Of a stretch of DNA of 64,000 nt, positions 9,146 to 63,565 are shown piece after piece. A program made the translations under genes and the position numbers. Within the stretch, counting starts at the first letter, position 1, and each line of letters opens with the position of its first letter. The notes under the pieces were generated by a model, which saw only the letters and a list, made by a program, of their open reading frames with translations, was not told where the DNA came from and ran no database searches. The DNA comes from Gracilaria domingensis (Eukaryota; Rhodophyta; Florideophyceae; Gracilariales; Gracilariaceae): contig VCMS01000001.1 in the NCBI GenBank assembly GCA_022539475.1, forward strand, positions 725,605 to 789,604, read 5' to 3'.

Positions 9146-9273
9146 ACCTTCCTAGTTGCGCACGCACACTGTTTGCTGCCAAACGGAAAGCAGCCTGCCG
9201 TTATCTCTCGTCTCGAGACATAAGACACAAACCAGGACTCCACATCCTTCTTTGAGAGTCACTCGCAGTGTCG

Positions 9274-19837: not shown

Positions 19838-20815
19838 GGAGGGCGGGGAGCGGGGAGCGGGGAGCGGGGCGAGTGAGCGGGGGCGGGGCGAGGCGGGGGA
19901 AGGAAGGGCGGAGGGGGGTGTGCGCGCGGGGTGGAGGGTGTTGAACGCGTGCGCGCCGTTGAACGCGCGGCGGTACAAAGCAGGGCGGGCGGCGTCTGCA
20001 CTGGCCCTTTGTGGCGCTGCGCTGGTGGCGCAAGAGCACGTGCTAGCGCTCCGTCTCAAACGCGGCGCGGCGGGCGCGCCGCCAACCGCCGCATTGCACC
20101 ATTCAGCGCACGCGCGCCGCGCGCGTCGCGCACGCGCGCGTGGCGCGCCATGAAGGTACACACGCGGCGCGCACGCGGCGGCCACGCGCGCGCCGTGCGC
20201 GCGCGCGCCGCGCCACCTGGGCGCGCTCGCCCATCGTGGCTGCTTTTTCCATGTCGTGAGTCATGAGTGCGCCTGCACACAAGCAATCCTACAGCCGTAG
20301 CGCAATCTCACGACCGCCTCTTCGACGCACCGCCGTGCCATGAGCGCGGGCGCGTGGAACTGCGCCGCCCCCCGCTCGCGCGGACCTCAGGGCGCCGCCC
20401 TTGGCGCCGCGCCGCACCAGCGCCCCAGCAGTGCCGCGCATTGCACACCCAACAACTAGATACCTTTGGGACCCGCTAACTTCACGGGAGCCAACCCCAC
20501 GGTCCGTTTGATCAAGCCGCGCACGCCGTTCGGAGTCCGTTCCGCAACACACGTGACCACGTACGTTACGTGTACAACGCACACACGTTTCGTGTTCTAA
20601 GACCACGTGCTTCACGTGTTCATGTTCGCACGAGCACTGTCCAGCGAAAAACTCTACCGTAGCATACCAGGGGTATCATGCATGTGTTGTGCAGTGCTGC
20701 TGAACGCCACTGCTGCTGCAGCTGCGCCGCCTTCAACACGCCGCGGTGTCGCGATTGCGCATCGTGAGAGCGCAGCTCGTCGCCAGTGGCGTGTCCATCC
20801 CACCGTCGTCGGCAG
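19838..20815. promoter_or_regulatory. CpG-dense bidirectional promoter region
   Basis: This 978-bp region lies between the divergent Sel1-repeat gene (minus) and RINT1/TIP20 gene (plus). About 20.06-20.23 kb is almost pure alternating GC/CG with short runs prone to Z-DNA. The frames on both strands here are low-complexity Arg/Ala products and are not genes. Confidence 0.6.
20548..20620. promoter_or_regulatory. cluster of ACGT-core / G-box-like sites
   Basis: Several ACGT cores occur within about 70 bp, including two perfect CACGTG palindromes (in ACCACGTGCT and TTCACGTGTT) and ACACGTGA, CCACGTAC and TTACGTGT. They sit about 200-270 bp upstream of the RINT1/TIP20 start. ACGT cores are classic bZIP/bHLH targets; a regulatory role here is inferred. 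Confidence 0.5.
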
Positions 20816-26647: not shown

Positions 26648-27724
26648 ATGAAGGCCTTAATTCTCGTCGGCGGCTTCGGCACCAGGCTGCGCCCTCTCAC
26701 GCTGTCCGTGCCCAAGCCGCTCGTGCACTTCTGCAACAAGCCCATGATTCTGCACCAGATCGAGGCGCTGGTGGCCGTCGGCGTCACCGAGGTGGTGCTG
26801 GCCGTCAACTATCAGCCCGAGAAGATGCAGGCCTTCCTCAAGGAGCAGGCGCACAAGCTGGGCATCAAGATCACCACGTCGCTGGAGACGGAGCCGCTGG
26901 GCACCGCCGGCCCCATCAAGCTGGCTGAGCCGTTCCTCAACGACGGCGAGCCCTTCTTCGTGCTCAACTCGGACGTGTCGTGCGAGTACCCGTTCGAGGA
27001 GATGATAGCCTTCCAGAAGAAGACCAACGCTGCCGGCGTGCTCATGGCCACGCCCGTGGAGGACCCGTCCAAGTTTGGCGTCATTCTGTACGACGACGCC
27101 GGTCGCATCAAGGACTTTGTGGAGAAGCCCAAGGAGTTCATCTCGCGCTTCATCAACGCCGGCATCTACTATCTCACGCCGGAAGTGTTTGACCGCATTG
27201 AGCTGCGACCCACCTCGATTGAGAAGGAGGTGTTCCCTCCTATGGCTGCCGAAGGCTTGCTGTACGTCATGGAGCTGCGCGGCTTCTGGGCTGACGTCGG
27301 CCAGCCAAAGGACTACCTCATTGGGCAGACTCTCAAGCTCAACGCGCTGTCGAAGCACGACCCGGAGGCGCTCGTGGCCGGCGAGAGGTACACCGGCAAT
27401 GTGATGGTGCACCCCACCGCCAAGATTGGGCAGGGCTGCTCCATTGGCCCGGACGTGGTCATCGGCGCCAACTGTGTGATTGGCGATGGCGCAAGAGTCA
27501 AGTCGTCGGCTATCTTGCCGGGCACGAAGATTGGCATGCATTCGTACGTTGACAAGAGCATTATTGGCTGGCAGTCACGCATTGGCAACTGGGTTCGTAT
27601 CGAGGAGAACTCTGTCCTTGGAGAAGACGTGACTGTCAAGGATGAGTTTCACTTGCATTCGTCTATTGTTCTGCCTCACAAGGGTGTCAAGAGCAGCTTG
27701 AAACCGGGGACGATTGTATTGTGA
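26648..27724 (+). CDS. GMPPB: Mannose-1-phosphate guanylyltransferase (GDP-mannose pyrophosphorylase)
   Basis: This 358-residue enzyme makes GDP-mannose from mannose-1-phosphate and GTP in the cytosol. GDP-mannose feeds N-glycosylation, GPI anchors and, in algae, cell-wall and low-molecular-weight carbohydrates. The nucleotidyltransferase domain starts at once with MKALILVGGFGTRLRPLT and has KPLVHFCNKPMI, FFVLNSDVSCEYPF (metal-binding Asp) and a VEKP motif (FVEKPKEFIS). The C-terminal third is a left-handed beta-helix of hexapeptide repeats (IGQGCSIGPDVVIGANCVIG and on), ending GTIVL. Length equals that of yeast and human GMPPB. The gene is strongly GC-biased relative to its neighbours, especially at third positions, which suggests high expression. 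Confidence 0.97.
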   Translation: MKALILVGGFGTRLRPLTLSVPKPLVHFCNKPMILHQIEALVAVGVTEVVLAVNYQPEKMQAFLKEQAHKLGIKITTSLETEPLGTAGPIKLAEPFLNDGEPFFVLNSDVSCEYPFEEMIAFQKKTNAAGVLMATPVEDPSKFGVILYDDAGRIKDFVEKPKEFISRFINAGIYYLTPEVFDRIELRPTSIEKEVFPPMAAEGLLYVMELRGFWADVGQPKDYLIGQTLKLNALSKHDPEALVAGERYTGNVMVHPTAKIGQGCSIGPDVVIGANCVIGDGARVKSSAILPGTKIGMHSYVDKSIIGWQSRIGNWVRIEENSVLGEDVTVKDEFHLHSSIVLPHKGVKSSLKPGTIVL

Positions 27725-30057: not shown

Positions 30058-31690
30058 TCAGAACCTCTCACCAAGAAAGAGCGCGTCCACAGTCGCCCGC
30101 CACTTCGCATCGTTCGTCGTCAGCACAAAGCTCTCTCCGCTTACGTCCCACAGCCTTCCCACTCCGTGTACTTCGGATGAAACAAATGTGCGATCAGACC
30201 GGATCCACCGCGAGGAGACCCTCTGCGAGTTTGTTAAAGAGAGCAATCCAAACATCTTCAACACTGTGCTCGTCTCCCGTACGCACAATTTTCTCGTCCG
30301 ACCCCTAGACAATGTTGTGATCGTCTGCAATCACAATGCCGCATGTCACCACATCAGTGCGTCTAACGAACGGCTGTCTTAGTGTCTGCCGGTTATGAGC
30401 ATCCCATACGCGTACCATTCTGTCGTCTGACCCATCACAATGATGTTATCCTTACCGTCTGCGCTCATAGTGAGGCATCTAACTCAGTCCTTGCGAGCTA
30501 CTAGCAGTTTTCTAAGTTTTTCTTTGCTGCGGGCGTCCCACACAATCATTTTCCGTCGTCTGACCGAGGTACTAAACGCTTGCCGTTTACACTCACAGAG
30601 ACACACGTAACCCAAGCAATATGTCCAAAGTTCGTGTGTTTGAGCGTTTCCCCGTTTGTAGGCGTTATACACACGCACTGTCTTATCTCAGGAACCCATA
30701 CCAATGATCTTGTCGTCTTCGCCCATACTGACGCGCCTAACTCAGCCATCGATTATCGTAATCTTTCCTGCCTTTCTACTCCTTACCACAATTTGCGATT
30801 CTTATGAGCAGTCAGAGCGCTATTTCGATCTCGAAAGAAAGCACAACAAGTGAAACCAACTATTCAGTACTGCTTCTTATACCCAAAGCGCTGAGGCGTG
30901 CATGCTCTAGTCACACTTTTATATAAACTAACGCAATTTTATGTCGTCTGATCATTCTTTGCCCCAAACAAACACACTGTCATCTTCGTTCACGCTCACG
31001 CCCATTACTTTCCTCAAAAAGTTAAAGCCAGCATAAAGCCACACGTGGGAGCAGAAAACCAGTTCCACCGGTTTTATAAACACAACAAAAACTCTGGACA
31101 ATCTCGATACCGGCTCCTATCTAACAGTTCTAAGACGCTCTTGCCCATGGCCGTGGCGTACCTTCGGTACATTCCTGAATTCTTTAGGAAAACCTTTTCA
31201 TCAGCTTGTGTTTGATAGCGTGCCACAACATCCATCTGTGCAATTGGAATCACACTTTGTTCGGAATGTTCGTGACTATTGTGCGGGCCTGCTGTTGGGT
31301 AGCTCATGCACGCAGCTTCCTTCACGGTTTGCATATGTTTCTTGCGATTCAAGTGCCCTACCGCTCTATCGTCTTCTATTTTTCCCAAAATGTCACGTCG
31401 TACTCTGCAGCGTAGACCTCACCTTCCATCAGGCGCTTTCCCATCCACTACTTCTTTCACAACAGCCAAAAAAAGTTCTCGAACTTGTTCCGCACCGCGT
31501 AGAATTATACATTAGTAGCCATGAATGTAAAATTGAACCATGCAGCCCAATATACACTAGTTCTCCTTTTTGGCACAAGCACAACATCAGCTAACGATTC
31601 TATCACAATTCTGGTTCACTAAAGTGTATCCAAGTCCCACAACTTGTCCACCATCTACATAGGCACGTATTGCTGCTTTCAAACAACATA
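30058..31690 (-). pseudogene. decayed WD40-half of the TIR-NB-ARC-WD40 family, minus strand
   Basis: Reading on the minus strand, 31690-31400 resembles the linker region before the WD40 repeats, as in the copy at 36.73-36.99 kb on the plus strand. Pieces with WD40 character follow (HIAWVTCVSVSVNGKRLV with SDDGK, and MIVWDARS, at 30.48-30.75 kb). At 30058-30330 is the counterpart of the post-repeat region (VSGESFVLTTNDAKWRATVDAL, compared with the EAWQPAIEALQLSW region of the good copy). Stops and frameshifts are numerous. It lies 350 bp behind TrhO and on the same strand. Confidence 0.75.
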
Positions 31691-32085
31691 GAGCACGAAA
31701 CTATTACCTAAACTTTCCGTGTCCACTCTCGTTGTCAAGAACTTGAAGAGAGATGTCGAAAATCCTAGCAACGAAAAGATGCGGCAGAAAAAGCTGACAA
31801 GGTTGGATCGGGGGTCACCGTAATGTCATTCTTTCTTCTTTCTGTGACACTTTCACTGTGAGCGTTCTACGCTCATTCTACTAAGGTGTTCATGTATAAA
31901 CTGCACAAACTGCATCTCAAGAAGCAGTCAATGGTTTCATAGGGTTTCTCTAGCGTACTCGCTCTTATATCTTTCATCATTGTCGCATTGTTTTAATTGT
32001 GTTGCTGTGCGGTAGGCTCGGCAAACAGAAAGGTTCTCAAAAGTTCTTTTTATCGTTAACTAATTACAATGTACCATCCCGCATT

Positions 32086-36740: not shown

Positions 36741-37121
36741 AATTGCACAAGCTGTGGAACTTGGATACACTTGAGAAAACCAGACTTGTGATGGAATCGT
36801 TAGCTGATGTTTTAGTTGTACCAAAAAGGGAACTAGTATATGTTGGGCTGCAGGATTCAGTTCTACGTTCATTACAACTTATGTAGAATTCTGCGCGGTC
36901 CCGGACAAGTTGACGAGCTTCTGTGGCTGTTGTCAAAACCACAGTGGATAGCAAAGCGCTTGGTAGAAGTTAAAATCTACGCTGTAGAGAACGACCTGCG
37001 CGACGTCGCAGAGGACGGCTCTGAGATTGTTCTGGGACTTTGCGAACGCGCGTTGGGCAACTTTCACGGTGGTGATGTGTACTTTACAAAAGATTTCCAG
37101 CCGTGCCGTTTTGTGCGCTGA
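36640..37121 (+). pseudogene. WD40-family remnant lacking all WD40 repeats
   Basis: The 3' open frame (36840-37121) reads CRILR...LLWLLSKPQWIAKRLVE, matching the linker of the good gene (LLWLLSQPQWIVERLIE). It then passes directly into SEIVLGLCERALGNFHGGDV and YFT.DF...FVR, the last 33 residues of the good gene. The ~400 residues between these blocks, that is the whole propeller, are absent. The 5' part (36.65-36.84 kb) is in another frame. Confidence 0.8.
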
Positions 37122-37730: not shown

Positions 37731-38157
37731 CATCTGGAAGACCACAACTTTGTACGACGATATCATCCCCACATTGTGGAGTCCGCAACAACTGCACAGC
37801 ATTGATCACCGTTGCGACAAGCGTTATCTGCCGTTGTGTGACGTCATCATCACTTTTTGCTTGTCTTACACATGAAGCTAAAGGGTTACCCAGGGATAGA
37901 AGACTACCTTTTGGTAAGTGTAAGACATGCTACAGAACTGGTTCTGCACTACGTGTAGTAGAGAGAGGTTTTTGAGATCGCGCATATTTTGAACTGCCCT
38001 CACATGCACCAAGTCATCGAGCTCGGAACTGCATTCGTGCAGTTCTCCCCGCCAAATCGTTGCGGGGCGGTTTAACATCGAAACGCTTGAGCATTCGCGG
38101 TTTGAGCACTCATGATTGACATCACGGTCACGGCTAGGGATGCACGAAGACTCTGAC

Positions 38158-38277
38158 GACGGCTCCGAGATTGTGCTTGGCCGTTGTGAGCTCGTTGGCC
38201 AACTTCCTCGGTGGTGATGCGTGCCGTCGGTACTTCACAGGAGAATTTCGATCGCGCCGTGTTGTGCGATTCTAACA
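38158..38277 (+). pseudogene. C-terminal tail fragment of the WD40 protein
   Basis: It reads GSEIVLGRCE, then after a frameshift GGDACRRYFTGEFRSRRVVR. It corresponds to the last ~33 codons of the intact gene. A 3'-end relic. Confidence 0.8.
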
Positions 38278-38559: not shown

Positions 38560-38700
38560 CTGGAAGCCCAGCGACAGCGTGGAACTGAGCGAGCGGATAT
38601 TTCGAAACGGATAAGCCACGCAAGCAAAGTCGGTTTTACAATGGGCGAGCGATAGTTTCCTTGTCTTCACCGGCATGGCTGAGAAAGATTCGACACCGTG
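38560..38700 (-). pseudogene. TIR-domain start, inverted relic
   Basis: On the minus strand the DNA reads FLSHAGEDKETIARPL, a stop, then NRLCLRGLSV, closely matching the intact TIR start at 48.56 kb. It is head-to-head with the plus-strand TIR relic 200 bp away. Confidence 0.78.
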
Positions 38701-38879
38701 GTGTCTGCGCAGAATGCGCGACTTGTGACATAAGGGAAAGAGATGCTGTTAGCTTTGGCCATGTAACGGATGTTTTGCTGGACATTCATCTCCTGCAACG
38801 ATACTATGCGTTGAGTTTTGTGCTAGTTGGCTGGTAGGAGCTAGCAGCTCATATTTCTCCCATGCCGCAAAACAATTTT

Positions 38880-39107
38880 CCCTCCGAACACCACAGTTTC
38901 GGGTATTTCTGAGCCATGCCGGCGAAGAAAAGGACACTCTTGCCCGACCATTATATAAAAGTCTTCGAAACCATGACCTATCAGTTTTTATCGACAACGA
39001 GTCCTTTTGTCTCGGTGACGATTTCCCTCACGTCATGAAACATACCGTGGAAACTGCCCCCGTCGGCGTCTTTAGTATGAGAGTCGACTTTGTGGCCATT
39101 GCGTGAA
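38880..39107 (+). pseudogene. TIR-domain fragment, truncated
   Basis: One frame reads FRVFLSHAGEEKDTLARPLY through SVFIDNESFCLGDDFPHVM and APVGVFSM, then a stop at VAIA. This is TIR box 1 to box 2 of the family. The NB-ARC region is missing; TrhO-like DNA follows on the other strand. Confidence 0.82.
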
Positions 39108-39199
39108 CTTCTAACATTCGTTCGCCGCTTAAATTGCGCTCTGGCTTCCAAAGGGGCACCTCTATTTTTGCTTATTCCTATTTCTACCGCTTTGGCACA

Positions 39200-39454
39200 C
39201 TCCAATGCCGTGATCCGACCCTTTTGAAAGATATCATTCAGCAGTCTTGAAATAAGCCCGTGAAAGGCTTGAGCATCGGCTTCGATAGCGCCAAATGTGC
39301 GGTTGATGCGCTCCGAGCTAGTACGGGTTCTTTCGGCCACGCTTTGTTGATTGCCGAGCAATGTCGCATCCCGGACAGCGCATGGTAAATCATTGATTTC
39401 AGTGTACTGGTAGAAGAGGGAAACAGTATCTTGCTCCTGGCGCTCTAGCTCCAC
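39200..39454 (-). pseudogene. TrhO 5' fragment
   Basis: It reads VSLFYQYTEINDLPC...RDATLLGNQ...TSSERINRTFGAIEADAQ and on to ISRLLND. It matches residues 4-66 of the intact TrhO at 28.8 kb. Similarity stops before the rhodanese domain. Confidence 0.85.
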
Positions 39455-44599: not shown

Positions 44600-45640
44600 T
44601 GAAACCCTGGAAGCGAGGAAAATTTATGCTCTTGAAGAAAGAGTGGCTTCCGTTTGCAATTCAGTCCTGCGGACGATGGCAAGAATTGTGTCCTACTGAT
44701 TTGGTGAAACGGAGAATGGATGAACGTACGATTTTCAGAATCGACAACGAGCACACTGTTCAGTTTGAGGTACCTTATCCAGAGAATCGTCAGCCGTCTT
44801 CAATGAGGCCAAGAAACCTCGATTACCCTGATAGTGTAGATACGTGGTTTAATGACCAGCACACAATCTATTGTACTTTTGGAGAGACGTAGAGCCGATG
44901 GCATTCAACAGAGCTACCTCGGTGCACTGTCAAGAATGGCACAACGAAAGTCGCTCTGACATCATGTATCTTGAGCGGAAGGGGATGCGGAGAGGAAGTG
45001 AAAAGCCGAGAAGTAGCATTAAAGACTTGTTTTATGGGTGAACTGTTTCGGGATTACATATGCGACTCCTTGCCCAGCAAAGGTTGATCGCGACAAAGAG
45101 TTCGAAACTCGATTACCCTGCATAAGCAATGCCTTCGACAGAACGGTGCGTGTTTGGGACGCTCACAGCGGGCAGGATGCTCAAGAACCTACTTGTCGCT
45201 CACACGGATTCGGTTACCTGTGTTACGCTAAGCGTAGTCGGTAACTGCGTTGTGTTGCGTTCGGACGACAAAATCGTGATTGTTCAGGATGCTCACAGTG
45301 GACAGGCACTCACAATCACCTTCGTTGGTCACACTGCTTCGGCGACATCTGCTGCTATTAGTGAAGACGGAGAGCACATAGTATCAGGTTCAGAAGACAA
45401 AGCAGTGCGTGTGTAGGACGTGCGCAGCGGTGAAGATGTTAGAATTGCACTCGTGCAGGACTACACGGTGGGTCCTGTTTTGCGGATCCGTTTTGTTCGC
45501 AATTTGTGTCCTTCGAAATATGCAGAGTGGGAAGGCTGTGACGAGTCGCGATACGGAGTGGCAGGCGACCGTGGACGCGCTCTCTCTTTCTTGGTCAGGA
45601 CGTAGATGTTACTGGTCAGCTTTCTTCAGGGAAGTTGTTG
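44600..45640 (+). pseudogene. decayed WD40 portion of the NLR-like family
   Basis: Pieces with WD40 character occur in two frames: NAFDRTVRVWDAHSGQ, HTDSVTCVTLSVVGNCVV, HTASATSAAISEDGEHIVSG and SEDKAVRV followed by a stop. The post-repeat segment SRDTEWQATVDALSLSW follows. The order is the same as in the intact gene. The DNA at 45.55-45.66 kb is the reverse complement counterpart of 29.99-30.11 kb. A TrhO fragment follows on the opposite strand. Confidence 0.8.
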
Positions 45641-45901
45641 ACTGTGGCGGCCACAACACCCGCTCGGCAAAGATTCTCGCCACGAGCGATGAGCGGGTGT
45701 GTAACGTCATTGCTACCGTCGCGTTCTTCTCTCAAGATTTGATAAGAGCTGTCAGATTTTGCGGTAGTGCGGCATCGTCACGAAAAGGTCGATTGTGTTT
45801 CCCCGAAGAGAACGTAGGGTGTCAACCATTTCCCCGTCATGTCGAAACAGCATGAGATCAAACGAAATAGGAACCAAGAAAGAAGGAGGCGGAAAATCGT
45901 T

Positions 45902-46215: not shown

Positions 46216-47070
46216 AGCTTCGACAATCACGCATTCATAGGGTGTGTGCCAAAGCGTTATGGCGACAAGGCCAATTGCCTGGAGAGCTGCTGACCTACCG
46301 TCCCCCTCTTGGATACTGGTTCAATGACAGGTATCAGCACGGCTGGAATGTCTACTACTGGCGGCACCAGCATAAGCATGTGCGCGGCCTCCTTGATTGA
46401 CATCCATAGTCATTGGCATCAATGTGCACGAACCAAGGCCTTAACTCACAACACCTTGCTCCAGAGTATTAAAGACTGCACCAAGAGGCAATGCCGAGAG
46501 ATCTGGAAGGAACAGAGCTGGCCGTATGCATACAAACGAAAACCATAAGAGCTTCGTCCTCAGTCATTGTACTCCAGTTTCTGGCTCTTCTACATGACAA
46601 GGATTGTGAAAATGTCTGAGAGATTGCGCTGTCCGCACGTTAGCGTCGTCGAACTAAGCTGAACAACGTCGCATCTCGGACGCTACGGAGTACACAGCAG
46701 TGCACAACCCGTTATCTCTCGGGCTATCAGCTGCTACGGAGAAAGGGAAAGCCGACGAGAAGTGATCTGTGGTCACTACCAGTGACCAATGAACGCATCT
46801 CATTCTTGTCACCTCACATCTCTCTTTTCTGCGGAGGTCACCGATCGGTGGTCAACTGTTCAACTTCAAGACGCGGGGCTCACACTCCTTGCCACTCCGC
46901 CCTTCGTACCGCTGGCTGGAGGACACTACTATGAATTGGGCACCGCTCAGAATTTCACTGCGTCCGTCCTCCGTCCCTGCATTTTTGGCGAACACCAGTC
47001 TTCTGCAACGCAACCATAGACACACTGCTACATCTATCGTCTAACCGAACCTAGCAGGCCATTCTATGAT
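46216..47070. other. intergenic, nothing recognised
   Basis: Only short frames without paralogues or motifs. Confidence 0.4.
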
Positions 47071-47074
47071 TCAG

Positions 47075-47270
47075 AACGCATCCTCCTGAGCTATGCTGGA
47101 GAAGACAAAAAACTACAGCACGCCCGTTGCATGAGAGCCTCACAAGACATGGCCTCCCCGTTTTTCTTGACAACGAGTTCTTTCGTCTCGGCGATCATTC
47201 CCCAAAATGTCATAGAACAAGCCATGCAAACCGTTCTTGTTGGCGTTGACTTAACTTTGCGACACTCCGC
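47075..47270 (+). pseudogene. TIR-domain fragment, frameshifted
   Basis: RILLSYAGEDKK is TIR box 1. After a frameshift HGLPVFLDNEFFRLGDHSP matches box 2, and AMQTVLVGV corresponds to AIQTAPVGV of the intact gene. It is about 1.2 kb upstream of the intact gene. Confidence 0.75.
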
Positions 47271-48517: not shown

Positions 48518-50137
48518 ATGGTAGAAGGCGCTTCCCCTTCCGGTGCACCACCGGCTCAAATCTTTCTCAGCCATGCCGGTGAAGACAAGGAGACAATCGC
48601 CAGGCCGTTGTACAAGCGCCTTTGCAAGCGTGGGATCTCCGTCTTTCTGGACAACGAGTCATTTCGTGTCGGTGAAGATTGCCCTGAAGTCATGGAGCAT
48701 GCCATACAAACCGCGCCTGTGGGAGTGTTCATCATGAGTCCCGAGTTTGTGGCAAAGCAATGGCCCATGCGTGAACTTTTGGCATTTGTGAAGCGATACG
48801 ACGATGCAATTGCTGCCAAAGACACCCCACCGTTACTAATTCCAGTGTTCTACCGCTTTTCCACTCGCCAGTGCTGCGATCCGACCATTTTCGATACGTA
48901 CAGTGAGCTCTTTTCTCGACACGGCCTTTTTAATCGTGCCCTGGAGGATGTTATATCATTTAAACAGGTCAAACATGCATTGCATACGGCCAAAAAGTTG
49001 TGGAGCGTGGAGAACAACTGTGGTGCATCCAATTCGGATAGTCCTAACATGTTGGAAACTAGAGAGAAGTTTATCGAAACTATTGAGAACATCATTTTGA
49101 AACGTCTTGGAATTGAGAGATCTCGTTTGAAAGACAGCAGTTATCGAGTAGTTAGCAAACCACTTATGCAACAAGATGTATACACTTCATGCAGCATGGT
49201 GCTCCCTAACCCACCGCGATTAACTTTGGACTATAATTCGCTAACCACATGCGAGGGAAGGTTGAAGGCAGCAGTTTTAGAAAAAAGTGAGAGCCGAATT
49301 GTCGCTGTTGTGGCTAATGGAAAAGGGGGAGTTGGTAAGACGTGCGCTTTGAGAGGACTTGCGGAAGACCGTGGAGTCAAAAATGTATTTGATGGGGGTA
49401 TTCTATACATGCAACTTGGAAATGATGCTACGGTATCGACCGTCATTGAAGGAATCGCAAATGCTGTTGAGTGCACAGGGGGCTCAAAGCTTTCAAGTAT
49501 CGTAAGGACATGCAAATCTATTCCAAAGGCATCGCAAAAAGCTGCGCAATGGTTTAGACCACATTCATGCTTGATTCTTGTGGATGATATATGGCATTCG
49601 AATGGAATAGATTGTGATGTGTTGACAGTACTCGGACTTATGCTGAACCCAAAGAGCCGATTAGTATACACAACAAGAGACAGCCATTTTCTTGTAAGAG
49701 CGAATGAAGTGATTGAGTTCAAGGAGAAGGAGGTGCATGGGGAGTTATCGCGTCGAATGTTGATGACACATGCGGGTTTTGAGCGACACACTGTGCTTGA
49801 TCGGAAGAACGAGAAGGCGTTCAATTATTTTCTGACATTGTGTCAGGGACTACCGCTTGGGTTTGGTATCGTGGGGGGGTCCGTAAGACGTTATTCATTT
49901 TCGAGCTGGCCGAAAGAGAACGCATGGTCAGACTTTTACGAGGACGTTTGTGCGGAAGAAACAGACTTAATGCAAGCTGAAGCTGAGACATATGGGGCAC
50001 TACCAAAGATTGTGGATATATCTCTTGAGGTGCTTGAGAGAGAGAGTGGAGATGGGAAGTTTGGGAACTGGTTTCGTGCTCTGTGTGTAATTCAAAAACA
50101 GCAATCTGTGCCTGTACGGATGTTACAAAAGCTGTAG
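48518..50137 (+). CDS. TIR-NB-ARC half of an NLR-like receptor, ending at an internal TAG
   Basis: The protein has 539 residues from ATG 48518 (an upstream GTG at 48470 is not preferred). The TIR domain (about 15-150) has box 1 IFLSHAGEDKETIARPLY, box 2 SVFLDNESFRVGEDCPEVM, and SPEFVAKQWPMREL whose Glu86 sits at the position of the catalytic glutamate of NADase TIRs. NB-ARC (about 240-530) has a P-loop GKGGVGKT (268-275), Walker B CLILVDDIW (351-359), RLVYTTRD (sensor) and QGLPLGFGIVGG (GLPL). The frame then reaches TAG at 50135-50137 and continues open in the same frame into a WD40 protein. TIR-NB-ARC proteins are intracellular immune or STAND switches in plants, fungi and bacteria. The TAG follows MLQKL, where a tryptophan is common in NB-ARC proteins, so TGG to TAG is plausible. 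Confidence 0.9.
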   Translation: MVEGASPSGAPPAQIFLSHAGEDKETIARPLYKRLCKRGISVFLDNESFRVGEDCPEVMEHAIQTAPVGVFIMSPEFVAKQWPMRELLAFVKRYDDAIAAKDTPPLLIPVFYRFSTRQCCDPTIFDTYSELFSRHGLFNRALEDVISFKQVKHALHTAKKLWSVENNCGASNSDSPNMLETREKFIETIENIILKRLGIERSRLKDSSYRVVSKPLMQQDVYTSCSMVLPNPPRLTLDYNSLTTCEGRLKAAVLEKSESRIVAVVANGKGGVGKTCALRGLAEDRGVKNVFDGGILYMQLGNDATVSTVIEGIANAVECTGGSKLSSIVRTCKSIPKASQKAAQWFRPHSCLILVDDIWHSNGIDCDVLTVLGLMLNPKSRLVYTTRDSHFLVRANEVIEFKEKEVHGELSRRMLMTHAGFERHTVLDRKNEKAFNYFLTLCQGLPLGFGIVGGSVRRYSFSSWPKENAWSDFYEDVCAEETDLMQAEAETYGALPKIVDISLEVLERESGDGKFGNWFRALCVIQKQQSVPVRMLQKL

Positions 50138-50140
50138 GGC

Positions 50141-52501
50141 TTGAATACACTGCAAGAAACAAAAGGTGTGGTGAAGTCTTTTGCTTACGTTTCAATTTTG
50201 CAAAGGACGAGAGTTCATGGTGTGGTGTACGTGCAGCTGCATGACTTGATTCTAGACATTGCCTATCGCAGAGCCAAGGAAGGCGGTGAGACGGAGGCTT
50301 TCTTCAAAACACTTGTTAGAAACTACCTGCGATATGAGCAAAGGATTGAGGGAGATGGACCAGTTGGATCTAGAGAAAGGTTTTTGGAGGGTTGCGCAGA
50401 ACCTGATGATACAGTGTATAATGTAGCGAGTGGCAAACGGCGGCAAGAAGAAAGAATCAGGGAGCCGCATCAAACTCCCAAGCGCTTTCGACGCAGAGAA
50501 AGTGGAGGAAATAATTCATTAATTGGACAGCAACATGCGGAAATTAGCAAGAAAGATGTAGAGCATGCTCTAGAACGACAATTAGAATCTCTGAGAAAGG
50601 TTGGAGAAGAGGTGGAGGCGAAGGCGAACTCGCAATGTGTTACAAGTTTAGAGCTGTGCCACCAGTGGTGGAATGCTGAAGATGATGGTTACGTACAGAA
50701 CAACGTTTGCAGGATTCTTCGACTCGCAGGATATGGAGAGCAGCTCCTGTGGCTGTTGTCGCAACCGCAGTGGATTGTGGAGCGACTTATTGAAAGCGGA
50801 ATTCTTTCAGTAGAACAGGACTTGGGTCATGGACAAGCAATATGCAGCGATCGATCTCCGCAACTTGAAATCCACAAGGAGCATTTGCAAATGATTGGCA
50901 GAGCTGCTCGGAGGGGGGCATTTTTCGTAAGAGAGAACCAGCGAGTGGAGGAAGGTTGGTTTCAGCTGCACGGGCGGTTGCTCTGGCACGCAACGCAGAA
51001 CGAGTTGACGAGGGATTTCGTGGAGAGGATGGAAAGGCGTGCCCCGAAGCCATGGCTGAAAGCGTCTGAAGGGTTGTTACAACAAGCGGGTGATGTTGTA
51101 CTTCAAGTTGTCAACGTTCATGGTAGAGTTGAGTGCACCCGTATAGAGCCTAAAGCTGTGTGGATTTTGTCCGTTGGCGTGGCGGACGATGTTATGCGTG
51201 TGGGAAGGTACGACACATCGAACGAATACTACAATGAAAACACGCTCGAAAAGCCCGGACAGTTAATTGGACGAATGGAGTGTTCTTCGTTCTTTCCAGA
51301 TCAACGAAGGGTTGTCACAGTGTACCAAGCTGGACGAATTTATATATGGAACAGAGAGACAGGAGTTCTCGAGAACGTTATAGCCCACGAGTGTGCTAAT
51401 CACGTACAGTTTGTTGGTTTTTGCGCAAATGGGACTCTGCTTGCGTGCGAGACAGAATATCATATCCTTCAGATTTGGGATACACTAAGTGGGAAAACCG
51501 TCGGGCAGTCGTTCAAAGGACACACAGACTGGGTGACGTGCGTGACGGTTAACGCAGACGGCACTCGCATCGTGTCAGGGTCGTCGGATGGAACAGTGCG
51601 TGTGTGGGACGCTAAGAGCGGCAACGCCATCGGGCAACCTCTCAGAGGTCACACATACGAGGTGACGTGCGTAGCTGTGAGTACGGACGGGCTTCGCGTC
51701 GTGTCTGGGTCTTTGGACAAGACGGTGCGTGTGTGGAACGCTAAAAGCGGCAACGCCATCGGACAGCCGCTCGAAGGCCACAGACTCCGGGTGACGTGCG
51801 TGTCTGTAAACACAAACGGAACCCGCATTTTTTCAGGCTCAGGAGACAATACAGTTCGTGTGTGGGACGCTGATAGCGGCAACTCCGTCTGCCAGCTTCT
51901 CGAAGGGCACACAGACGAGGTGACGTGCGTGGTTGTAGACACGAAAGGCACTCGCATCGTGTCTGGCTCAGATGACAAGACAGTGCGTGTTTGGGATGCA
52001 GAAAGCGGTATTGCCCTCAACTTGAAAGAGCCGCTCACAGGACACACAGGCAAAGTAACGTGCGTGGTGCGAAGTGCGGATGGCACTCGCATCGTTTCAG
52101 GCTCGTACGACGGGACAGTGCGTGTGTGGGACGCCAAAAGCGGCTACGCCGTCGGGGAGCCGCTCCGAAGTCACAACGAATTGGTGTTTCGTGTCGCGGT
52201 GAGCGCGGATGGCAGCTATGTTGTGTCGCAGGACACAGGAGCACAACGGCTGTGGGCGTTAAACGATAATGGCGGTGAGTTCATTCTCAACTCATATGAC
52301 GAAGCGTGGCAGCCTGCCATCGAGGCGCTGCAGCTGTCGTGGTCTGTGCCATGGTGGGTGCCATCGCAGCGGGAGGTGCGCACCATCTCAAGAGACCGCT
52401 CTGAGATTGTGCTGGGCACCTGCGAACACGCGTTAGGCAACGTCCACGGTGGTGATGTATACTTCACAGGAGACTTCCGATCATGCCATATTGTGCGCTG
52501 A
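50141..52501 (+). CDS. WD40 half of the same NLR-like receptor, in frame after TAG
   Basis: This is 787 codons open from the TAG to the stop at 52501, in the same frame as the TIR-NB-ARC part. No ATG marks an obvious independent start. The first ~100 residues (LHDLILDIAYRRAKE) look like the winged-helix end of an NB-ARC region. A charged helical linker follows, with LLWLLSQPQWIVERLIESG. WD40 repeats come next: two diverged (about 375-455) and six regular ones (about 455-705) of the type GHT..VTCV.V...GTRIVSGS.D.TVRVWDA.SGNAIGQ.L. A conserved tail (SEIVLGTCEHALGNVHGGDV, then FTGDF...IVR) ends it. The regular repeats are unusually alike, suggesting recent expansion, as in fungal HET-type NLRs. 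Translation requires TAG readthrough, RNA change or a separate start; otherwise this is a recent pseudogene. Confidence 0.9.
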   Translation: MNTLQETKGVVKSFAYVSILQRTRVHGVVYVQLHDLILDIAYRRAKEGGETEAFFKTLVRNYLRYEQRIEGDGPVGSRERFLEGCAEPDDTVYNVASGKRRQEERIREPHQTPKRFRRRESGGNNSLIGQQHAEISKKDVEHALERQLESLRKVGEEVEAKANSQCVTSLELCHQWWNAEDDGYVQNNVCRILRLAGYGEQLLWLLSQPQWIVERLIESGILSVEQDLGHGQAICSDRSPQLEIHKEHLQMIGRAARRGAFFVRENQRVEEGWFQLHGRLLWHATQNELTRDFVERMERRAPKPWLKASEGLLQQAGDVVLQVVNVHGRVECTRIEPKAVWILSVGVADDVMRVGRYDTSNEYYNENTLEKPGQLIGRMECSSFFPDQRRVVTVYQAGRIYIWNRETGVLENVIAHECANHVQFVGFCANGTLLACETEYHILQIWDTLSGKTVGQSFKGHTDWVTCVTVNADGTRIVSGSSDGTVRVWDAKSGNAIGQPLRGHTYEVTCVAVSTDGLRVVSGSLDKTVRVWNAKSGNAIGQPLEGHRLRVTCVSVNTNGTRIFSGSGDNTVRVWDADSGNSVCQLLEGHTDEVTCVVVDTKGTRIVSGSDDKTVRVWDAESGIALNLKEPLTGHTGKVTCVVRSADGTRIVSGSYDGTVRVWDAKSGYAVGEPLRSHNELVFRVAVSADGSYVVSQDTGAQRLWALNDNGGEFILNSYDEAWQPAIEALQLSWSVPWWVPSQREVRTISRDRSEIVLGTCEHALGNVHGGDVYFTGDFRSCHIVR

Positions 52502-53030
52502 GTTTTCAGGCGGTCATATCTTCCCGATTTCCTGGGTTCAGACAGAACACGTACCTATTCGCTTCACGCATGTCACGCATGAAACGACGCGGCGTAGTTG
52601 GTGAGGTGGCGTCGCATGGTGTGATCAGGACGCGAAACTGCGTTTGCCACGACGGGACGTTTGAAGCCGCACAGCTGTCGCAAGAGATCACAAATGGCAG
52701 CGACAGTGAAATATCAAACTCGGTTTTCCCCGAGAGCACATGTTAAGATTGGAGCTTTTCGATGGCGCCGACAGGCGCGGAAGACGAACGGGATGGAGAA
52801 CTGCAGGTTAAGCGTCAGAGAATGGTTACATTATGCAAGATGTTGGCCATTCAATGCCAGTACGGCAAGAAAGCCTTCGAGCAGATCAACTTTTTCTTGC
52901 GGGCGCGCCTGTTCCTCGCATTTCGCTCAACTCAGATCGCCTGCATCTCGGCCTTTCACGCAGTGATACATCCTTTGCTTGTCAGGAGCTAGACGCACAT
53001 CAGCTTTCTACGTCTCAAAACACTTCTTTT
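52502..53030. other. intergenic, nothing recognised
   Basis: Open frames here are short and without motifs. Confidence 0.4.
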
Positions 53031-53034
53031 GCCC

Positions 53035-53420
53035 AGAACCCGTCGTTTCGGATCTTCATCAGCCATGCTAATGATGATGAACGCAATTTATTCTATAGGT
53101 TCACACGGGTCAAAAAAGACCGGTGACTCCGGTAGGAGCACAAGAAAACTATACCCTTTCCGTTGTGGAAGCGCTTTCGCAAGCATGGTATTTCCGCTTT
53201 TCTCGAAAACGACTCCTTCCGTTTTTGGCGACGATTGCGCTCAAGTCAAGGCGCATCCCATGAACACCATCCCCGTGGGCACCTTCGTCGAGAGTCCCGA
53301 GTTTGTGGCCAGGCGTGGTCAATTCGTGAGCTTCTAGAATGTTCGAGCGTCCATCCTTCACTCGTTACGACCGGGCCCTGGCAGCTAATGAGATGTTGCT
53401 GCTGTTATCCTTAAGGATAG
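53035..53420 (+). pseudogene. TIR-domain fragment with several frameshifts
   Basis: FRIFISHANDDE (box 1), LWKRFRKHGISAFLENDSFRF and WSIRELLECS are in different frames. The order matches the intact TIR domain. It ends before NB-ARC. Confidence 0.78.
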
Positions 53421-53917
53421 CTCCTGTCATTTTACCGCTTTTCTGTCCATCAGTGCCGTGAAGAAGGGGCCATCTCCGATGGTCAGCAGTGCCTAAACTG
53501 AAGAAATCGTCAAGCCTCAGCTTCGAATATGGAACATGTATGTTTACTTTGGGAGAGCCGGGCTTGCATCAGACCGCCATGTTCTGTCTCATTCAACACG
53601 AAATCCAAAAGCAATTGCCCTCCTGTCTCACCGTTTGCAAGCACTTGAATTGATTGGTTCAGAACCAACGGTTCAAGTTGAATTGTATCATTTCGAAGAC
53701 CACAGCTTTGTACCACGATATCATCTCCACAATAACTGCATTGCAGCATAGATCCCGTTGCTTACATGCACTCTATCGATCTCGGACCCGCGCTTGTTCA
53801 GAATTCCTCGCTACATCGTTGCGTGGCGGTGTAACACCGAAACGCTGGAGCATATACGGTTTAAGCACTCATGATGGGCATCGCGGTCACGGCTAGAGAT
53901 GCCCGACGACACTGACG

Positions 53918-54033
53918 ACGGCTCCGAGATTGTGCTTGGCAGTTGTGAGATCGATGGCAAAGTTCCTCGGTGGTGATGCGTACCGTCGGTACTCCACGGG
54001 AGAATTTCGATCGCGCCGTGTTGTGCGATTCTA
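53918..54033 (+). pseudogene. C-terminal tail fragment of the WD40 protein
   Basis: GSEIVLGSCE, then in a second frame GGDAYRRYSTGEFRSRRVVR. Counterpart of 38158-38277. Confidence 0.8.
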
Positions 54034-54319: not shown

Positions 54320-54460
54320 TGGAAGCCCAGCGACAGCGTGGAACTGAGCAAGCGGATATTTCGAAACGGATAAGCCACACAAGCAAAGTCGGTTTTACAA
54401 TGGGCGAGCGATAGTTTCCTTGTCTTCACCGGCATGGCTGAGAAAGATTCGACACCGTGG
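54320..54460 (-). pseudogene. TIR-domain start, inverted relic
   Basis: The minus strand reads FLSHAGEDKETIARPL, a stop, then NRLCLCGLSV, as at 38560-38700. Confidence 0.78.
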
Positions 54461-54620
54461 TGTCTGCGAAGAATGCGCGACTTGTGATATGAGGGAGAGA
54501 GATGCTGTTAGCTTTGGCTATGTAACGGATGTTTTGCTGGACATTCATCTCCTTCAACGATACTATGCACTGAGTCCTGTGTAAGTTGGCTAGTAGGAGC
54601 TAGCAGCTCATCTTGCTCCC

Positions 54621-54860
54621 ATGTCGCAAAACAATTTTTTCTCCGAACACCAGTTTCGGGTATTTCTGAGCCATGCCGGCGAAGACAAGGAACCTCTTGC
54701 TCGGCCATTTTATAAAAGTCTTCGAAACCATGGCCTATCAGATTTTATCGACGAGTCCTTTTGTCTCGGTGACGATTGCCCTCACGTCATGGAACATGCC
54801 ATGGAATCTGCCCCAGTCGGCGTCTTTATTATGAATGTCGAATTTGTGGCCGATGCGTGA
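54621..54860 (+). pseudogene. TIR-domain fragment, truncated but open
   Basis: This 79-codon frame starts with ATG: MSQNNFFSEHQFRVFLSHAG, EDKEPLARPFYKSLRNHGLS, then FCLGDDCPHVMEHAM and APVGVFIMNVEFVADA, stop. It covers TIR box 1 to just before the catalytic-Glu segment, so it cannot be an active NADase. It may be transcribed as a short TIR-like peptide, but the homologous copy at 38.9 kb argues for a relic. Confidence 0.75.
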
Positions 54861-54959
54861 ACTTCTGACATTCGTTCGCTGCTATAACCGCGCTCTGGCT
54901 TCCAAAGAGGCACCTCTATCGCTTATTCCTATTTCTACCGCTTTGGCACGCTCCAATGC

Positions 54960-55210
54960 CGTGATCCAACCCTTTTCAAAGATCTCATTCAGCAGTCTTG
55001 AAATAAGCCCGTGAAAGGCCTACGCATCGGCTTCGATAGCTCCAAACGTGCGGTTGATGCGCTCCGAGCTAGTACGGGTTCTTTCGGCCACGTTGTGTTG
55101 ATTGCCGAGCGATGATGTGATCACATCCAGGGCAACGCATGGCAAAATCATCGATGTCAGTATACTGGTAGAAGCGGGAAACCAGTATCTTGCTCCTGGC
55201 GCTCTAGCTC
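54960..55210 (-). pseudogene. TrhO 5' fragment
   Basis: Counterpart of 39200-39454 with extra indels. It covers the N-terminal domain only. Confidence 0.8.
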
Positions 55211-59533: not shown

Positions 59534-61900
59534 TTAACACCGGTCGGTAACATTGAGCTGATCTACCGCTTGCGGCTCTGCGTTCTCCGGGAAGCCCGGG
59601 TCTACAGATACTGTCTTCTCCGCTCTGCGGGTGGTGACCTCACTCAGTTGTGGTGTTCCCGACGGGGTTACGTTATCCACAGCGGTGTGTACCCCTTGGG
59701 TGGGTCGTGTCGTTTCCAGCGCATTGCTCAACGAACTCGACGGAGTATCACCACGAGGTACAGCGCCTCGGCGCACCACAACGCTATCGGTAGAGACCGC
59801 GAGATTGGTGGCGGTACCTTGCGACACAGTGTGACCGTGCGACGCCGGTGTAACGGGTTCCGTACTTTCCTCCCCCTCCTTAGGCGGTGGCACGGGAGCC
59901 ACGACGTCCGGTGGGGGGTCAACTCTAGTTGAGTTTTCCTCTTCGTCTCCCGCAACGGGTTGTGCTACCCGCGTGGGTGATTCTGACTTCGGTAGATCCG
60001 ATAAGCCGCGATCAGGGCGGAGAGTCGCAGGGCGCGAAGATACGACCTGTTCGTCCCCTGTAGCTTCACCCAGTTGGGTGTTAACGTGAACGTAGGGTGG
60101 TGGTGCCAGCGCGACACGGTCTAACGAGATCCGTTCGTGGAGATTATTGATATCCAATACTACGGTATCGTCCGTGACGGAAATAACCTTGTAGGGTCCT
60201 TCCGCGATAGGCGAGAGCTTGTGGCGGCGTTCCTTCTCCGGATTATAGTATTCTTTGCGGAGAAATACCATATCGTCTGGTTTGACCTTTGGTAATGGGG
60301 TCTTAACCTTCGCATCGAAGTTGCGCTTATAAGCGGCCTGCGCCTTATCCATCGCTGTGCGAGCGACCGGTACCATTTTGGTTAACCAATCCTTCCAAGC
60401 GTTCCTGTATAACCCAACAGACGGGTACGTAGAAAGCGTTTCTTGAGCCTCGATTGCAACCGGTGGCGGTACTCTTGACAATACCAACTCAAAAGGTGCT
60501 AGCTTCGTTACCCGGTGGACTTGGGTGTTGTACGCATACGTAATAGCGTCCGTATACAAATCCCAATCCTTAGGATGATCTGCCACATAAGATCTTAATG
60601 CATTCAGCATGGTACGGTTAAATCGTTCTACCTGACCATTTGTTTGGGGGTGGTAGGTGGTCGTAAATAGATTCTTGACACTCAAGATCCGACAGACGTC
60701 CTGGAAAAACTTCGACGTGAACTGTGAACCGTTATCTGATAATAGATGAACCGGTGGACCGTACACAAAGACCCAGTGGGTGACAAAAGCTTGTGCAACC
60801 ACGGTGGCCGTAATCCGTTTCAGCGGGACTGTCCGTACCAACTTAGAGAACCGATCGGTGATAACCAGAAGGTATCGATTACCTCTTGCGGTTCTGATCA
60901 ATTCACCTAAGATATCGATAGCGATAAACTCCAAAGGAGACCGTGCTGGGAACAGCGTTAACTTCTTCGAGTACTTACGAAGTTTCACGTTATTCTTAGC
61001 GCACTCGGTGCAAGAGCGTCGTACTGCGTAGCAGTCCAATGCCATTGACGGCCAGTAAAAATCCCTACGCAGGGTCAAGTATAGTTTTCGACCTCCTGGG
61101 TGGGCTCCTACCTTCACATAGTGTGTCATTACCAACACACGGTTTTGCAGCGAGTATGGGACCACAATTTGGGTATACGCTTCGACCAACCTAACCAGGT
61201 ACCCCTGATCGTTAACCTGAAAAGGTATACGATCTCCTCCATTGAGACGAGCGCGAATTCGCGTACAAAACTCATCCGTTTGCTGTTCTCGGATCATCTC
61301 CTCGAGAGTGATGGGTACAAAAGATCCGGTCAAGGGATCCAACTTCTCAGAAGTGAGCAGGATGTCGTCACAGATGTCATCCGACAAAGATTCGACCCAA
61401 CCTGCTTGTTCTTCCACCATAAAGCATGGTATGTCCAGATCGTCAACTGGTGCCGCTTCTGCATCTGTCCCCAAGCGGGAGAGTGCATCTGCCTGCAGAT
61501 TCAACGTTCCTTTTTTGTACGTAACTGTGAAATCGAACTCCGATAACCTCAAGCGCCAACGCATCAAGCGTCCTGATGGTTCCGAGATTTCCATGAGCCA
61601 TCGGAGAGATGAGTGGTCCGTATGTACCGTAAAATGGTTGCCCATAAGATATGGTCTCAGTGTAGTTAGAGCCCATACAACGGCTAAGCACTCTTTCTCC
61701 GAAACTGAGTAGTTACGTTCGTGTACGTTCAAGGATCGCGACCAGTATCCAATTGGATGTCTCACGCCGTCTTCCGTGACCTGAAACAGGGCGCAACCAA
61801 CCTGGTGTGCACTGGCGTCAGTGTCTACTTCGAATGGAAGTCCTAGCTTAGGCAAAGCCAAGATTGGCGGTGACGTTACTGCGTCAATTAATGCCGAAAA
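59534..61900 (-). CDS. retroelement pol, RNase H and integrase part
   Basis: The frame starts within the RT-RNaseH junction; 61861 is only its first Met. RNase H has FEVDTDASAHQVGCALFQ, SEKECLAVVWAL and VHTDHSSLRWL. Integrase has an HHCC zinc domain (THYVKVGAHPGG...CTECAKNN), a DDE core with FIAIDILGE, LLSDNGSQF and YHPQTNGQVERFNRTM, and a GPY/F-like end (EGPYKVISV). A long Pro/Ser/Thr-rich tail follows. The upstream RT frame ends at 61888 in another frame; the two join by a -1 shift at a TTTT run. Confidence 0.93.
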   Translation of the reverse strand, partial: FSALIDAVTSPPILALPKLGLPFEVDTDASAHQVGCALFQVTEDGVRHPIGYWSRSLNVHERNYSVSEKECLAVVWALTTLRPYLMGNHFTVHTDHSSLRWLMEISEPSGRLMRWRLRLSEFDFTVTYKKGTLNLQADALSRLGTDAEAAPVDDLDIPCFMVEEQAGWVESLSDDICDDILLTSEKLDPLTGSFVPITLEEMIREQQTDEFCTRIRARLNGGDRIPFQVNDQGYLVRLVEAYTQIVVPYSLQNRVLVMTHYVKVGAHPGGRKLYLTLRRDFYWPSMALDCYAVRRSCTECAKNNVKLRKYSKKLTLFPARSPLEFIAIDILGELIRTARGNRYLLVITDRFSKLVRTVPLKRITATVVAQAFVTHWVFVYGPPVHLLSDNGSQFTSKFFQDVCRILSVKNLFTTTYHPQTNGQVERFNRTMLNALRSYVADHPKDWDLYTDAITYAYNTQVHRVTKLAPFELVLSRVPPPVAIEAQETLSTYPSVGLYRNAWKDWLTKMVPVARTAMDKAQAAYKRNFDAKVKTPLPKVKPDDMVFLRKEYYNPEKERRHKLSPIAEGPYKVISVTDDTVVLDINNLHERISLDRVALAPPPYVHVNTQLGEATGDEQVVSSRPATLRPDRGLSDLPKSESPTRVAQPVAGDEEENSTRVDPPPDVVAPVPPPKEGEESTEPVTPASHGHTVSQGTATNLAVSTDSVVVRRGAVPRGDTPSSSLSNALETTRPTQGVHTAVDNVTPSGTPQLSEVTTRRAEKTVSVDPGFPENAEPQAVDQLNVTDRC

Positions 61901-63565
61901 GCAGACGCTTCCGCGTCGCCTAGGGGTTCCAGTTGAACTGGTTGACCTTTTCTCAAAAGGTGGTTAAGGGGGGTCGCAATATCTGCGAAGTTCGGGACAA
62001 AACGCCGATATACATTACAAAGACCCAGAAAACTGCGGAGTTCCGTTTGTGTCGTAGGGTGTTTCGCTTCCTTCAGCGACTTCACGCGAACTGCGTCAAC
62101 TGAGAGCTGTCCAGGTCGAATGATATGCCCTAGGTATTTGACAGAATCTGTGAAGAACTCGCACTTCTTGAGTTTCAGCGTAATGCCCGCGTCCCTGAGG
62201 ACTCTCATGACGTCCCGGACGTGTGTTAAGTGGTCATCAAGGTTATCGGAGAACACGATGATATCGTCAAGATACACCAAGCAGGTCTTCCACTTGAATC
62301 GAGCCAAGAGGATATCGATAGCACGTTGAAACGTAGCCGGCGCGTTGGTTAATCCGAACGGCATTCGTTTAAACCGGTACAAACCTTGGTGGCACACAAA
62401 AGCAGTTTTGTCCTTATCCTTTTCACGGATCGGAACTTGCCAGTATCCCCAATTGGCATCCAAGGCGGTGAACACTGTAGCACTCCCAAGCGAGTCAATG
62501 TATTCGTCCATCCTGGGTATGGGATAAACGTCTTTGACGGTGACCGAATTTAGACGACGGTAATCAATACAGAATCGCCACGATCCGTCCGCTTTTGGAA
62601 CTAGCACCACGGGTGAGGCCCAAGCGGATTGAGCCGCCTCTATGACGCCAGCGCGTAACATCTTCTCAACCTGAGATTGCTCTTCTTCCCTAGCTTTGGG
62701 ACCAGCCCGGTATGGGTGTTGGGAAATGGGGCTAGTACCTGGAAGTAGGTCAATACGGTGTTCCGTGATTCCAATTGTCCCGAGGGATCCATCCCACATG
62801 GGTGTGAACTCCCTCAACATTTCTCTTAGCTTACCTCTATGAGATTCAGGTACATGATTAAAATTCAACTGTTCCAGTTCCTTGACAGGGTCTGTATCTT
62901 CCGTTCCTGGTGGCAACGCTTTACCCTCGGTGGGTGCCAGCGATTCGGTAACTTCGCTCGCCGGGGTAACCGATGCGGTAAACGCGGTTTCCGCTGATCC
63001 CTCCCCCTCCTTAGCATCGGTTATACCGAGAACATCCGCAACGGGTATCTTCGTCGGTACGATAGCAGCAGGGTGTGGAAGAGTGGTACCAAGGATTTGG
63101 TTTTTAGCTAACCACTGTCGGGTTGTGCCAAAGTTGGCGACCAAAACTCTGAATGGTTTGTCGGGTTCCACCGAGATTACTCCGTTCGCCAAAGCGAGTT
63201 GCTTCTGATCATACAATGATGGCAATGGTTGTACCACACGTAGGCCAGACTGCTTAGTAGTTATGGTGACCCAAACTTGGGATTGCGCAGGGATTGCGAT
63301 GGCATGAGCCACATGGAGCTTAGATGATACCGGGTCGACGGTTGGAACTTCCTGTGCAGCAGGGAGCGGGACGCGCTTGCGTGTAGCTCTCTTTAGCGGT
63401 TTCCTTACAATCGGTATTTCGGAACCATCATCCATGGTAACAACTCGAGCTCGAGGTCGAATCGCTTCAACAAAACGATCACAAAAGTCACAACCGAGTA
63501 TCACCGGTGCGGCAATGCTTTTGCAAACCATGAAATCCACTTTAACCATACAGGTTCTAATCGTA
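61888..63565 (-). CDS. retroelement pol, end of protease and reverse transcriptase
   Basis: The frame begins with the second half of the protease (APVILGCDF, the ILG flap-base motif) and a 200-residue linker. RT follows, with SPVVLVPKADGSWRFCIDYR, FTALDANWGYWQ, MPFGLTNAPATFQR and the catalytic YLDDIIVFS. It ends in LRSFLGLCNVYRRFVPNF, typical of Ty3/gypsy. It stops one base out of frame with RNase H. Confidence 0.93.

Follow-up and report, generated by a model that had tools for sequence, protein, structure and literature searches.

A probable recent nonsense allele in a large family of TIR-NB-ARC-WD40 receptor genes of the red alga Gracilaria domingensis

Introduction

Receptor-like genes that join an NB-ARC nucleotide-binding (NB) domain to WD40 repeats are already documented in red algae. 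In published accounts, 58 of the 61 NB genes of Chondrus crispus are NB-WD40 genes and 23 of those 58 carry a TIR domain (PMC7145615), the TIR-NBARC-WD40 arrangement is in print for the same species (PMC9806590), and NB-ARC-WD40 genes of Pyropia respond to infection (PMC6928737). In fungi, one study reports a high ratio of nonsynonymous to synonymous change (dN/dS) at positions 10, 11, 12, 14, 30, 32 and 39 of the HET-D/HET-E repeat unit (PMC12222747). Here we describe a TIR-NB-ARC-WD40 gene of Gracilaria domingensis located at 48518..52501 (+) of a 64,000-nucleotide stretch of contig VCMS01000001.1 (assembly GCA_022539475.1), hereafter the window, whose reading frame is interrupted by one internal TAG. 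As judged from its sequence, the gene very probably belongs to a large, fast-turning receptor family and has undergone a recent nonsense change that made it a null allele or a very young pseudogene. The architecture is not new, since it has been reported in Chondrus; an initial annotation of the window had considered it unusual in an alga, a view that is not supported, given the 23 Chondrus crispus genes and the 88 NB-ARC matches found in the present genome.

Results

Translation in frame 1 gives 1328 codons whose only stops are the TAG at 50135-50137 and the terminal TGA, in agreement with the initial annotation of a single frame open over 3984 bp except for one TAG. The 539 residues upstream of the TAG match Pfam TIR_2 (1e-16) and NB-ARC (8.9e-13) and the 786 residues downstream match WD40 (8.9e-60) and many propeller models, which bears out the annotated TIR-NB-ARC-WD40 receptor gene; among the matches listed (25 of 43 Pfam families), WD40 families are present and none is named as a leucine-rich repeat (LRR). 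Along the frame, all features being on the + strand, the order is TIR (residues 15-123, 48560..48886, Pfam TIR_2 and PDB sequence matches), NB-ARC (Pfam match, residues 248-464, 49259..49909), a helical spacer and WD40 repeats (six hidden Markov model matches, residues 999-1237, 51512..52228), and the family alignment adds a conserved C-terminal box (residues 1250-1327, 52265..52498). Translation and family alignment also locate GKGGVGKT (49319..49342), LILVDDIW (49571..49594) and GLPL (49847..49858), and translation places the MHD-like LHD (50237..50245) on the 3' side of the TAG; these correspond to the P-loop, Walker B, GLPL and LHD motifs of nucleotide-binding leucine-rich repeat receptors (NLRs). 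In PDB sequence searches, the TIR domain matches AbTIR best, an NAD+ hydrolase; the Glu in the WxxxEL helix of such TIRs, their catalytic residue, is retained as E86 (48773..48775), which is invariant in 14 family sequences. The P-loop, Walker B, GLPL and TIR Glu previously described as intact are therefore all present, E86 being aligned to the AbTIR Glu. With NCBIfam, the first half had three TIR-type matches, all under the cut-off, and the second half had none. The start Met is aligned with that of the nearest paralogue, both proteins beginning MVEGA, and such a frame is far beyond chance, since 13 paralogues can be read through in the same way without a stop.

The TAG had been placed exactly between NB-ARC and the rest of the protein. 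It lies instead inside the stretch FRALCV.QKQQSVP..MLQKLW, which with LHD 34 codons further on corresponds to the winged helix of NLRs, and the family alignment is continuous across it. The LHD motif of NLRs is part of the NB-ARC/winged-helix module, so the stop cuts this module itself and not a domain border. At the same position, the codon is TGG (Trp) in every one of the 46 rows that other loci of the family in this genome contribute to the alignment; these rows come from 45 loci (L004-L048, with two genes from L028), L001-L003 having given none. Read by eye, W also occupies this position in three proteins from other sources (P0001, P0004 and P0008). The predicted truncated product would thus retain TIR and most of NB-ARC and be devoid of the LHD motif, the spacer and the sensor. 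A structure model of residues 1-539 has a mean predicted local distance difference test score (pLDDT) of 72.0 that falls below 50 over residues 481-539, which would fit half a domain and may also be caused by the thin 14-sequence alignment.

Other accounts of the TAG were also weighed. An intron removing the TAG, which could itself act as splice acceptor, would delete adjacent residues that are coding and conserved in the paralogues and has next to no likelihood. Programmed readthrough yielding some full-length receptor, one of the options of the initial annotation, would suit a frame that remains open and fairly constrained beyond the TAG; it is nevertheless very improbable, given the Trp codon in every other row, stops of other family members that fall at other sites, and the 101 nt from the TAG, which are no more stably folded than shuffled sequences (z = -0.31). 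The option of two separate polypeptides was also considered and lacks an evident start, the first in-frame ATG occurring at 50891, 756 nt past the TAG and after 16 out-of-frame ATGs.

The age of the stop was approached with a three-branch codon model comprising the window gene and the paralogues L009 and L010. On the window branch, neutrality (omega = 1) was rejected for the part upstream of the TAG (omega 0.31, p = 4e-6), for the downstream part without the WD40 repeats (0.60, p = 0.01) and for residues 801-975 (0.36, p = 0.002). A neutral branch of t ~0.2 would be expected to accumulate 33.7 stops, versus the one found, and there is no frameshift. The TAG therefore appears to be young, because purifying selection held on the lineage and a single stop is present where about 34 would be expected. 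Together with the TGG of the paralogues, the omega values and the expected-stop count make a recent null allele the best supported of the three options initially envisaged.

Several observations weigh against such a reading. Neutrality is not rejected on the window branch for residues 541-800 (omega 0.73, p = 0.32) or for the C-terminal box (omega 0.86, p = 0.73), so that downstream parts may already be decaying or be under weak constraint. The synonymous distance dS in residues 541-620 is 0.36 to L010 versus 0.76 to L009, and an exchange of pieces between paralogues, which may have taken place, would weaken any date for the stop. Among the terminal stops of 14 family genes, 11 are TGA, three TAA and none TAG; as to TAG serving as a sense codon, it ends three of the 12 open reading frames (ORFs) of the window that were checked, these being mechanical ORF ends. 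Finally, both the TAG base and the loss of function are deduced from the sequence of one assembly.

In order to place the gene in its family, we searched the assembly (77.9 Mb, 680 contigs), in which profiles gave 88 NB-ARC matches, from TIR and non-TIR classes, and 42 TIR_2 matches. With the TIR-NB-ARC half as query, 24 of 80 scored rows, the window included, reach from residue <=9 to 538/539 with 52-100% identity, one further row spans the same interval at 31% identity, and the nearest paralogue, L009, is 85% identical. A total of 28 TIR-class genes were read (the window gene, those of L009-L033 with two in L028, and L044). The full-length paralogues that the initial annotation had proposed to look for do exist: 13 genes are open from Met to C-terminal box as single frames that need no intron, and 15 are broken. 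L032 and L033 appear to be parts of a single gene divided between two contigs; because of this pair and of a tandem array described below, independent breakage events are fewer than 15. In seven of the 28 genes (window, L013, L019, L020, L022, L025 and L026) the frame is continuous but for a single stop. Stop sites differ among family genes, sharing being limited to one tandem array, and stops at Trp codons are recurrent (window, L020, L023, L027 and L030). On a tree of the N-terminal half (31 rows), the broken label requires nine changes, at least six of which are forced by well-supported branches, and it is not clustered beyond shuffles (94/500 as low). The census of open and broken genes and the scatter of breakage over the tree thus point to birth-and-death turnover, and a nonsense allele of this kind is ordinary for such receptor families.

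This census also bears on the alternative that the alga has an intact gene and that the TAG arose as a base error in assembly or consensus. The TAG is the sole disabling change in 3984 bp, selection looks normal, and the gene is single copy in the assembly with a next best DNA match of 83%, hence without internal confirmation. Six sister genes however carry a single stop in a continuous frame, some of these stops having been inherited by array copies, and since such alleles are common in the family we regard a base error as unlikely.

The tandem array lies at ~270-300 kb of contig C28 and contains five copies (L023-L026 and L044) ~6 kb apart. L023-L026 have in common an 808-aa TIR-NB-ARC-spacer frame closed by a shared TAG where the spacer meets the WD40 repeats, the comparison covering these four copies; their WD40 parts are partly decayed, two of the four having lost frame or end downstream. 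Plant TIR-NB proteins work together with full NLRs, and the stop in the window gene could similarly yield a useful truncated TIR-NB-ARC protein. The retention of the N-terminal part in the array would be in line with this idea, as would the lower omega upstream of the TAG and the nonsynonymous to synonymous counts in residues 541-800 (34:11 on the window lineage versus 27:26 for L009). The codon model, on the other hand, detects no significant difference in omega between the window gene and its paralogues upstream (p = 0.22), downstream (p = 0.37) or in residues 541-800 (p = 0.12), the product would stop inside a domain, and the 808-aa part of the array copies has a pN/pS of 0.50-0.99, that is, weak constraint at best. 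We consider a functional truncated protein quite improbable and retain a recent null allele or very young pseudogene.

Variation in the sensor was analyzed on ungapped WD40 units of 43 aa, 44 from 13 TIR-class genes and 46 from 8 non-TIR genes. Five columns (6, 7, 9, 25 and 27) were picked from the TIR-class set and met again in the non-TIR set. Based on the unit-wide synonymous rate, their dN/dS is 2.16 in the TIR class (gene bootstrap 1.68-3.37) versus 0.28 in the other 38 columns, and 2.40 in the non-TIR class (1.55-3.80) versus 0.27 elsewhere; with the local synonymous rate, the ratio becomes 1.65 in the non-TIR class and 1.01 in the TIR class. Compared with four-fold third positions, the first and second codon positions in the five columns still show more difference (0.647 to 0.395; 0.539 to 0.251). 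Diversifying selection at the five columns is thus likely from these sequence comparisons. When the position pattern of fungal HET-D/HET-E was tried at 43 shifts, a single shift gave the best fit in each of three sets, namely the TIR class, the non-TIR class and five proteins, out of 27 found, that have four or more full units; in these five proteins, column 18, which is not part of the fungal set, is very variable (0.79, second highest). Mean amino acid identity between units of one gene is 0.52-0.73 in the six genes of this genome with at least four full units (0.66 in the window gene), and 0.81 and 0.84 in two Gracilariopsis chorda proteins. Concerted evolution within genes appears weak, as the nearest DNA neighbour comes from the same gene for 7/44 units (mean of 3.3 and maximum of 10 in 1000 shuffles). 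Searches of the open-licence literature gave no report on point on WD40 diversification in red algae.

The presumed working of intact members was considered from models built on 14-sequence alignments and of modest quality, for which reason fold matches support domain identity only. In Foldseek, the 539-aa TIR-NB-ARC model had plant RPP1 as its top match, followed by NRC3 and APAF1, at template modelling scores (TM-scores) of ~0.3, and the C-terminal part of L009 was modelled as an extended series of propeller blades (mean pLDDT 59.1). Intact members most likely act as a switch of the STAND (signal transduction ATPases with numerous domains)/NLR type, in which, from fold and motifs, the WD40 propeller would sense a ligand, NB-ARC would exchange nucleotide and then assemble into an oligomer, and the clustered TIRs would hydrolyse NAD+ and elicit a defence or death response. 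In the window copy, a recent nonsense change at the invariant winged-helix Trp would end the product early, and comparable single-stop losses recur at other sites in sister genes. Two EukProt sequences, P0001 and P0002, are 62% and 61% identical to the first 560 residues of L009 with full coverage and carry TIR_2, NB-ARC and WD40; the family is probably transcribed in a relative, since their TRINITY names suggest assembled transcripts.

The locus consists of one nearly whole gene amid a graveyard of relics, at least eight relics of the same receptor family being present elsewhere in the window. Upstream, decayed family pieces occupy 30073-31772 (-), 36743-37118 (+), 38152-38269 (+), 38606-39232 (a facing TIR pair, both strands), 45122-45741 (+) and 46989-47247 (+). 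Downstream are decayed TIR relics at 53013..53462 (+), 54365..54490 (-, inverted) and 54597..54984 (+), and a fragment of the C-terminal box at 53917..53948 (+) that is 81% identical to 52394-52425. The facing TIR pair at 38.6-39.2 kb and the pair at 54.4-55.0 kb are similar, as though one were a duplicate of the other. Retrotransposon pol pieces with reverse transcriptase, RNase H and integrase domains are found beside the receptor locus at 59534-63549 (-). The window further contains a mannose-1-phosphate guanylyltransferase at 26648-27724, 93% identical to that of Gracilaria firma (next row named for a red alga, Chondrus crispus at 75%, in the best 120 of 2537 matches), a frame with a DDE_1 transposase domain at 15009-17009 (+), a 1341-aa open frame without Pfam match at 9268-13293 (+) and a 690-aa frame with Sel1 repeats at 18113-20185 (-).

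Discussion

Taken singly, the window gene would be a routine casualty of NLR turnover, and its family illustrates, at the sequence level, receptor birth and death in a lineage of multicellular organisms far removed from land plants. Less expected, and more interesting than the stop, the positions at which the sensor domains vary appear to be those that vary in fungal receptors for self/non-self recognition, and the WD40 units hint at the location of the ligand surface. Gracilaria-type algae are known for thallus coalescence and for cell-fusing parasites. We tentatively propose, as a reading whose prospects fall somewhat short of even, that the NLR repertoire of Gracilaria-type red algae is built from WD40 blades that are alike except at five diversifying surface-type positions matching those of HET-D/HET-E, coupled to a TIR output, and serves to recognize pathogens or foreign cells. 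If this were true, one sensor-diversifying scheme would have been reached in two lineages and the window gene would represent one discarded specificity. Should population data bear out the coincidence with the fungal HNWD positions, two lineages would diversify a propeller sensor alike, which makes allorecognition or pathogen recognition directly testable in red seaweeds.

Among known systems, the Chondrus crispus genes, as published, share the domain order, the multicellular red algal host, the large family size and the presence of TIR in a minority of members; the member in the window carries a stop and its frame is not intact. Six Gracilariopsis chorda proteins (P0004-P0006, P0008, P0016 and P0020), named 'Vegetative incompatibility protein HET-E-1' or NB-ARC protein, are 43-52% identical to L009 in the NB-ARC half and have WD40 repeats, but these matches span no more than 61-68% of the region used as query, and P0004 and P0008 have a different N-terminus without TIR. 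Plant TIR-NLRs (TNLs) such as RPP1, which headed the Foldseek matches of the 539-aa model, have TIR-NB-ARC in common with the window gene, whereas their sensor is an LRR and not WD40. The plant TNP/XTNX proteins, as defined in PMC9806590, end in TPR where the window gene has WD40. APAF1, also among the Foldseek matches, shares NB-ARC and WD40 and differs at the N-terminus, which is CARD in place of TIR. The fungal HNWD proteins (HET-D/E/R) and the red algal family are both STAND proteins with a WD40 sensor; in the fungal proteins, HET and NACHT stand in place of TIR_2 and NB-ARC and units are >80% identical within a gene, above the values in the G. domingensis genes, while the hypervariable unit positions appear to coincide with those of HET-D/HET-E.

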